From NCBI RefSeq assembly GCF_014267175.1, contig NZ_JACMTR010000002.1:5667501-5731500 (forward strand): a stretch of DNA of 64,000 nt. Direction: 5' to 3'. A model generated the notes under the pieces. That model saw only the letters and a program-made list of their open reading frames with translations. It searched no databases and had not been told where the DNA came from. The stretch comes from Pseudonocardia sp. C8 (GTDB lineage: Bacteria; Actinomycetota; Actinomycetes; Mycobacteriales; Pseudonocardiaceae). Both the position numbers and the translations under genes were made by a program. Below, one piece after another: positions 13,483 to 14,909 of the stretch (its first letter is position 1; each line of letters begins with the position of its first letter).

Positions 13483-14634
13483 CTACTCCGAGACTGGTGA
13501 CGGCTGCTTGTCGAACACGTGCCCGATGAACTGCAGCGCCGCGGGCAGGTTCTCCTCCCAGGTCGGCTGGATCTGGTCGGGTGGCAGGATGAAGCCACCT
13601 TCGGCCTGGGTGTCGGGCCGGAGCTCGATGGTGAACGAGGGCACCCCGTACTCGCCGTAGGTCCAGTCGGTGGTGTCTCCGGCGGTCGGGTAGAGCGCCG
13701 ACGACTGCTGGACGGTGTAGGTCTCGCCGTGGACCTGCCGGATCAACCGCGCCATGTCCTGGCCGAGGCCCTGCATCTCCCGCCGGTCGTGGGCGTCGGC
13801 GATCTGCGTGGAGGTGTAGCCCCACGGGTAGAGGATCAGCTGCGAGTAGCTGTGGTAGGTCAGCACCCCGGCCGGCAGTTCGCGGGCGACGAGGTTGCGC
13901 ACCGCGCGGACCTCGGGCTCGGAGAACGCCCTCGGCCCGACATAGGTCTCGTCGCGGGGTACGTGACTGGACGTGCTGATGTTGAGCGTCCCCCACATGT
14001 AACCGTAGTTGCGGTTCGGGTCGACGCCGCGGCTACCGTCGGGGTTCAGCCGTCGGTTCTTGCGCCACAAGCGGTCCTGGGTGCGGGTGTGCTCGTGTCC
14101 GTCCGGGTTGACCATGGGGGCGACCCAGATCTCGCCCTTGCGCAACCACTGCTGAACCGGGTCGGTGCCCGACCGGGTCACCAGGTGCTCGGCGAGCAGA
14201 TACGGCACCTCGACCGCGATCCACTCGCGAGCGTGATGGCAGCCCAGGAACACCATCTTGAGCGGGTTGCCGCGTCGTTCTCCGATCCGCAGGGCCCAGA
14301 TCGGCCGGTCCTCCACGCTCCGGCCGATCTCGTGCAGCTCGGCGACGTCGGGATGGTCGTCCGCCAGCCGTTGCAGGTCCGCAGTGAGTGTCTCGACGGT
14401 GTGGAAGCCGGCCAGTGCCTCGTCGGTGGCGAAGGTCGACAGGTAGGCCTGCGTCTGCTGCAGCTCCTCGACGGCGTAACCCATGTGTTCGAGCCGCTCG
14501 GCCTGCGCCGGAGCGGCCTGCAGGACCAGGTGCTCGGGTTTGACCTCCCACACGTCGAGACCCAGCGGCGAGGACAGCAGGTGCTCCAGTGGAGCCCGTG
14601 GACTGTCCGAGGTCACCTTCACGATCACCGTCAT
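13483..14634 (-). CDS. M14 zinc carboxypeptidase with N-terminal activation-peptide-like domain
   Basis: A 383-residue metallopeptidase. Residues 1 to about 65 resemble the M14 propeptide (Propep_M14): VIVKVTSD, GLDVWE at 25-30, then MGYAVEEL. The catalytic domain has the zinc ligands HARE at about 134-137 and the histidine in LTYHSYSQLILYPWGY, the substrate-binding NPDG and DPNRNY segments, and the catalytic glutamate in FTIELRPD. No signal peptide or Tat motif is visible, unusual for this normally secreted family. The start overlaps the stop of a small upstream gene by 4 bp (ATGA); that gene encodes a free copy of the propeptide-like domain. Confidence 0.9.
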   Translation of the reverse strand: MTVIVKVTSDSPRAPLEHLLSSPLGLDVWEVKPEHLVLQAAPAQAERLEHMGYAVEELQQTQAYLSTFATDEALAGFHTVETLTADLQRLADDHPDVAELHEIGRSVEDRPIWALRIGERRGNPLKMVFLGCHHAREWIAVEVPYLLAEHLVTRSGTDPVQQWLRKGEIWVAPMVNPDGHEHTRTQDRLWRKNRRLNPDGSRGVDPNRNYGYMWGTLNISTSSHVPRDETYVGPRAFSEPEVRAVRNLVARELPAGVLTYHSYSQLILYPWGYTSTQIADAHDRREMQGLGQDMARLIRQVHGETYTVQQSSALYPTAGDTTDWTYGEYGVPSFTIELRPDTQAEGGFILPPDQIQPTWEENLPAALQFIGHVFDKQPSPVSE

Positions 14635-14909
14635 CTCGGCCCGCCTTCCTGGTTGTCGTTGTCGCCCTCGCCGGTACCGGCGGCCCGACGCCGGGCCCGT
14701 TCCACGAACTCCGACTGGCGTGAGATCCGCACGACGACGGCCAGTCGCCGCCGCTCCACCTCGGACAGCTGGTTCTCGGTCGCGGCCACCACCAGCGAGT
14801 CGCCGTGGCGCTCCCACACGTCCAGGCCCGCCGAGGACGCGAGCACGTCGTCGACGCTGCCCTCACCCAGGGGGGTGAGCCGGGCGATCCAACGATCTTC
14901 CGCGATCAT
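14631..14909 (-). CDS. stand-alone M14-propeptide-like protein
   Basis: A 92-residue protein whose residues about 6-65 align with the N-terminal domain of the downstream carboxypeptidase: both have a hydrophobic strand, then L(A/S)S..GLDVWE (28-33 here), LVVAA and an ERRRLAVVVRI-like helix-strand. The tail (about 70-92) is charged and probably disordered. GGGGGAGGTC before the ATG at 14909 is a strong ribosome binding site, favouring this start over upstream alternatives. A 4-bp overlap couples it to the peptidase. I propose an in trans inhibitor or folding helper (inference); no published family is known to me. Confidence 0.7.
   Translation of the reverse strand: MIAEDRWIARLTPLGEGSVDDVLASSAGLDVWERHGDSLVVAATENQLSEVERRRLAVVVRISRQSEFVERARRRAAGTGEGDNDNQEGGPR

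Follow-up and report, generated by a model that had tools for sequence, protein, structure and literature searches.

Free copies of a protease propeptide have been described as inhibitors in two protease classes: the stand-alone cathepsin propeptides of family I29, CTLA-2, crammer and BCPI, are so described in one account (PMC4089206), and SUB1-ProM, which is encoded beside subtilisin genes, is described in another as a potent inhibitor of SUB1 (PMC6993865). Here we examine a gene pair in a 64,000-nucleotide stretch of the genome of Pseudonocardia sp. C8 (the window), in which a 92-residue protein is encoded next to an M14 carboxypeptidase whose own N-terminus carries the same domain. We favour, with a little more than even confidence, an interpretation of the small protein as a stand-alone M14 propeptide, which would bind in trans to the enzyme and most probably inhibit it. 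In open-licence PMC papers we found no description of an M14 propeptide that exists as a separate protein. The features of the locus are as follows.

14631..14909, minus strand: small gene, encoding the 92-residue free-standing propeptide-like protein (core of about residues 5-64, followed by a variable tail)
13483..14634, minus strand: M14 carboxypeptidase gene, encoding 383 residues, with no signal peptide seen
14431..14634, minus strand: attached N-terminal propeptide-like domain, residues 1-68 of the M14 protein, homologous to the small protein
13486..14412, minus strand: M14 catalytic domain, residues 75-383, with a Pfam profile match and conserved catalytic residues
14631..14634, minus strand: ATGA overlap of the M14 gene start with the small gene stop

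The flanking genes on both sides, as read from the list of open reading frames (ORFs), lie on the plus strand, and the pair thus looks like a two-gene unit. The ATG start of the small gene agrees with the N-termini of its relatives (MxxxExRWIARL). An initial sequence-only reading of this DNA had proposed that the genes are coupled through the ATGA overlap, which is present, and that neither product has a signal peptide. The latter also held: a Kyte-Doolittle scan of the first 45 residues found no hydrophobic leader in either protein of the window or of 16 other pairs, the best 19-residue mean being 0.57 and 0.42 for the window's two proteins and at most 1.28 across the 17 pairs.

Free and attached domains belong to one family

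By sequence, the small protein and the N-terminus of the M14 enzyme are a single domain family. Residues 17-58 of the former align with residues 14-55 of the latter with 15 of 42 positions identical (E 5e-6 in a single comparison), and profiles of 30 free proteins and 17 attached domains match with an E value of 6.2e-16 and a probability of 98.6%. AlphaFold2 predicts an identical order of elements in both, which bears out the shared layout that the sequence-only reading had noticed. The predicted elements correspond to the open-sandwich arrangement beta-alpha-beta-beta-alpha-beta plus a connecting helix, an order that is also that of procarboxypeptidase and subtilisin propeptides. In a structure search the best fold matches were subtilisin prodomains and related proteins including POIA1, tied in Z with others, and procarboxypeptidase pro-segments were among the best rows, likewise tied with other folds.

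Both domains share with animal procarboxypeptidases an LD(V/F)W motif, whose invariant residues are Asp27 and Trp29 in the attached domain and Asp30 and Trp32 in the free domain, where it is retained as LDVW. Alignment of the whole M14 model with procarboxypeptidases is compatible with a position of the attached domain in the active-site cleft. The model has a mean predicted local distance difference test score (pLDDT) of 74.7, with several stretches of the catalytic domain below 50, and is weak in parts probably because the underlying alignment is shallow and close.

A domain tree of 47 rows and only 70 columns separates the free from the attached domains at one branch, with 100/100 support. 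The split is thus old and single in these rows, and the duplication that the sequence-only reading had proposed is an ancient one.

The M14 enzyme has intact catalytic residues

The Peptidase_M14 profile (PF00246) matches the enzyme with an E value of 6e-75 over profile positions 3-285 of 286, which amounts to the full catalytic domain. H134, E137, H261, R191, N207, R208, Y315, E337 and R136 are invariant in 33 rows of close relatives (alignment A4). We take H134, E137 and H261 to be the zinc ligands and R191, N207, R208, Y315 and E337 to be catalytic, following the numbering of carboxypeptidase A, and on this alignment the catalytic residues are intact. Among solved structures, carboxypeptidases A4 and T come closest to it in sequence (E 6e-49 for 3qnv, a carboxypeptidase T), and many relatives of the M14 protein carry the source name carboxypeptidase T. 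Bacterial A/T-type carboxypeptidases are regarded as secreted zymogens.

Relation to known propeptide families

The sequence-only reading had likened both regions to the M14 propeptide. The likeness stands for fold topology and for the LD(V/F)W motif, and profile comparison gives no significant sequence homology to the animal propeptide: hhalign against animal M14 pro-segments gave probabilities of 0.6 and 0.7% and E values of 0.098 and 0.088, with a pro-segment profile of 5 rows only and an aligned stretch that included the motif. Kinship with the animal M14 propeptide rests on fold topology and motif, which calls for caution in interpreting the small protein as an M14 propeptide.

The Propep_M14 (PF02244) match to which the sequence-only reading had looked did not appear in Pfam searches, where none of the 30 free and none of the 17 attached domains matched and the window's two proteins gave no such match even at E 10. 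This says little, because Pfam equally misses the pro-region of a secreted carboxypeptidase-T-like relative. No model from Pfam, NCBIfam, PADLOC or PHROGs matched the small protein above its curated cut-off. A weak match to Se-cys_synth_N in 3 of 30 members (E 0.0046), scoring 17.5 bits where the cut-off is 22, was taken as chance, and sequence profiles from the PDB gave no relevant match to either domain. PADLOC models of known anti-phage defence genes match neither protein at E <= 1.

The two genes occur together in other bacteria

An alignment scan with the small protein, restricted to one genome per species, yielded 17 loci (designated here by L numbers). A full-length M14 orthologue with 61-78% identity adjoins the small gene on the same strand in 16 of them. 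The exception (L022:5001-5252) is a decayed second copy with an internal stop in Geodermatophilus tzadiensis, at a locus with no M14 match; the other locus of this species, L021, is intact.

Searches from the enzyme gave the same picture. Among 397 genomes of the order, 12 had an M14 match at E <= 1e-60, namely the window's own and 11 others, and the small gene adjoins the M14 gene in all 11. Among 112 Geodermatophilaceae genomes (family assigned by overlap with named loci), 13 contain the M14 gene and all 13 contain the small gene. Eleven of these 13 genomes are also in the order survey and most are species of the small-protein scan, so the two search directions are not independent samples. 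In a 396-genome sample of the phylum, the window's own genome gave the only M14 match at E <= 1e-60; this 6.24-Mb genome has the window's M14 gene as its sole M14 match.

A closer set of 60 genomes around and including the window's own returned four small-protein matches at E <= 0.01. Two are the window's own and that of one further genome, G018 (1.1e-19); the other two (E 0.008-0.009) lie within open frames of more than 400 residues and were taken as chance. Thirteen of the 60 genomes had an M14 match at E <= 0.001, with orthologues only in the window's genome and in G018 (5.9e-173), where the small gene adjoins the M14 orthologue. The other 11 genomes have weaker M14 matches at 17 loci, where no small gene was found save for one match at E 0.007, and M14 homologues with leader-like N-termini (L025, L026) showed none.

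The pair also extends to alphaproteobacteria. In a search of 72,556 plasmid records, matches to the small protein (E <= 0.001) and to the M14 protein (E <= 1e-60) fell on the same five Sinorhizobium meliloti megaplasmids, in which the genes lie side by side by coordinates with the small gene first in 5/5; two of these loci (L055 and L056) were read. In strain GR4 (NC_019848.2) the M14 match is in two pieces and the gene may be interrupted. Phage records gave no M14 match at E 1e-30, and a phage origin was rejected on this ground. The small-protein profile had 1267 matches at E <= 0.001 among 7990 candidates scored, and among the best 120 rows of each list, five small proteins have an M14 protein whose longest contig is of identical size (13170, 5224, 4841, 4504 and 3602).

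Adjacency of the small gene and the M14 gene is near-obligate. The actinobacterial conservation anticipated by the sequence-only reading was therefore found, and neither of the outcomes that it had named as contrary, differing folds or a small gene not conserved beside M14 genes, came about.

Gene order and selection

The small gene comes first in 6 of 17 arrangements (the window, L008, L010, L014, L016 and L019), all but L019 having the 4-base overlap seen in the window, and follows the enzyme gene in the other 11. On the M14 tree a single change of gene order is needed (support 90/91; 88% of bootstrap trees), and adjacency persists through this swap.

The free core is under purifying selection. 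Its ratio of nonsynonymous to synonymous substitution (dN/dS) is 0.33 over six close pairs and 0.38 over 136 pairs; the catalytic domain gives 0.23-0.29, the attached domain 0.21-0.46 and the free tail about 1. Core and tail were counted apart because full-length dN/dS of the small gene reaches 2.25 in close pairs (L014/L016, with very few changes).

Neighbouring genes in other lineages

No third constant gene emerged when ORFs of at least 80 residues from 16 loci and from 11 kb of the window were clustered. The remaining large clusters consist of ORFs that overlap the pair in a different frame, and clustering missed divergent S8 subtilase genes that were found by eye and by tblastn. Such genes, leaderless by eye, are direct same-strand neighbours of the pair at 5 of 16 loci (L006, L010, L014, L016 and L019). 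The following come from different bacteria and have mutual identity of only about 25-29%.

L019:2916-4430: S8 subtilase
L014:3032-4564: S8 subtilase
L010:6557-7834: S8 subtilase
L006:5385-6959: S8 subtilase

With three of these S8 proteins as queries, tblastn found none in the flanks (about 5 kb or shorter) of the other 11 loci or in the 64-kb window. A longer stretch of the L020 genome (L062) has an S8 gene about 7 kb off.

Further peptidases, again leaderless by eye, include M43 and M28 enzymes in L006, an M43 enzyme in L017 and L057, and an M28 enzyme with an esterase in L020. In Geodermatophilus aquaeductus (L006:329-6959), M43, a 208-residue protein, M28, M14, the small protein and S8 form a same-strand leaderless (by eye) run. 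The 208-residue protein lies between M43 and M14 (or M28) genes in three Geodermatophilaceae (L006:1241-1867; L057:8278-8904; L065:8639-9262); neither Pfam nor NCBIfam has a match for its L006 copy, and it is possibly another accessory protein. A 658-residue protein occurs near the pair in two Geodermatophilaceae genomes (L017:6367-8343; L057:11503-13467), and its L017 copy has no Pfam or NCBIfam match either.

On some S. meliloti megaplasmids (L055:46-5140, pSymA) the pair lies downstream of peptide-type ATP-binding cassette (ABC) transporter genes. Lipases occur elsewhere (Tle1-like in L013, patatin in L018), and further loci have neighbours with no evident connection to the pair. In Actinomycetospora lutea a contractile tail sheath gene is found close to the pair (L016:629-2632). 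A contractile injection system payload was rejected as a rule, the sheath family PF04984 being found in 3 of 15 pair-bearing genomes searched and the window's own not being among them. The hydrolase and transporter neighbours fit a role in intracellular peptide handling and supply a candidate activating endopeptidase, but the window itself yielded no S8 gene.

Proposed function of the small protein

That the same two genes stay together in other bacteria suggests that a free lid controls the enzyme in the cell. In the mechanism we consider most plausible, the small protein would fold like the enzyme's own N-terminal domain and dock in trans over the active-site cleft once the attached domain had been clipped or swung away. 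Asp30/Trp32 of the LDVW motif would engage Arg136, an invariant residue in the HHARE motif of the enzyme, much as the pro-region Asp does in procarboxypeptidases. A leaderless exopeptidase, presumably cytosolic, would thereby be harmless until the small protein was removed, and a folding role could accompany inhibition.

The main obstacle to this account is the enzyme's retention of its own lid, with almost no linker (about 6 residues from the predicted helix to the catalytic match). Exchange of one lid for the other, or cleavage by a neighbouring protease, would resolve the difficulty, though both are guesses. Both domains and the enzyme are net negative in nearly all 17 pairs, so charge complementarity lends the complex no support.

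A more tentative elaboration, to which we would give clearly less than even weight, is a two-protein zymogen. Attached and free propeptides would compete for the cleft, the ratio of free lid to enzyme would set activity, and a co-encoded leaderless S8 or M43 peptidase would clip the attached lid in some lineages.

The principal alternative to inhibition, which we regard as unlikely though the strongest of its competitors, is that the small protein acts as an in-trans foldase or remains permanently with the enzyme as a regulatory subunit that might pair with the attached domain, in either case leaving activity unblocked. Subtilase propeptides are described as intramolecular chaperones (PMC6993865), and near-obligate linkage together with the 4-base overlap in five of the six small-gene-first arrangements would suit such a partner; the enzyme's retained domain, moreover, could already be the inhibitor. 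Retention of LDVW in the free domain, with the Asp that faces the active site in procarboxypeptidase, is instead what would be expected of an inhibitor, and the position of the small gene after the enzyme gene in 11 of 17 arrangements is less suited to a foldase.

We consider it improbable that the small protein serves another protease, such as the adjoining subtilase, as an I9-like inhibitor. The tied best fold matches to subtilisin prodomains and POIA1 and the leaderless S8 genes at 5 of 16 loci speak for this idea, but S8 genes were not detected in the remaining flanks of about 5 kb or less or in the window, the sequence kin of the small protein is the M14 domain, and its constant neighbour is the M14 gene rather than S8. 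A functionless duplication relic is the least credible explanation, since the fast-evolving tail and the decayed orphan copy in L022 are outweighed by a core under purifying selection, by descent as one old lineage and by the presence of the small gene beside every orthologous M14 match examined, after the swap and in alphaproteobacteria alike.

The observation made in the sequence-only reading is thus confirmed and its interpretation supported, inhibition or chaperoning being what we infer from it. A leaderless M14 enzyme with a loose copy of its pro-domain offers a direct test of how a cell handles a broad cytosolic exopeptidase, and would also test whether metallopeptidases, too, took the propeptide-to-inhibitor route known from subtilisins and cathepsins. 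Genes annotated as 'hypothetical protein' in soil bacteria and metagenomes likewise acquire a partner and a way to be tested. Were the two-protein zymogen true, this would be the first M14 enzyme with a stand-alone propeptide as its regulator, and the pair would belong to an intracellular peptidase module passed between actinobacteria and rhizobial megaplasmids.

Comparison with known systems

The small protein resembles the I9 stand-alone subtilisin propeptides (POIA1, yeast proteinase B inhibitor and Arabidopsis SPI-1, as well as SUB1-ProM and TgMIC5) in that it is small, separately encoded and of propeptide fold. The I9 propeptides target S8 serine endopeptidases, whereas the constant partner and sequence kin here is an M14 metallocarboxypeptidase. 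Unlike the small protein, the I29 propeptides have a helical fold and target cysteine proteases.

The activation domain of procarboxypeptidases A and B (PF02244) is similar in its order of elements, its LD(F/V)W motif and its place ahead of an M14 catalytic domain. The animal domain belongs to a secreted zymogen and has an activation loop, whereas the domain described here is leaderless, shorter and also made as a separate protein. Among bacterial M14 enzymes of the carboxypeptidase T type, carboxypeptidase T itself aligns with the catalytic domain and is secreted. Known M14 inhibitors (PCI, LCI, TCI, NvCI and latexin), several of which are PDB partners of the structural matches, would have the same target as the small protein; they come from plants and animals and have unrelated folds. 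By analogy, a free propeptide that regulates its protease, as is known for subtilisins and cathepsins, would be new in the case of an M14 enzyme.
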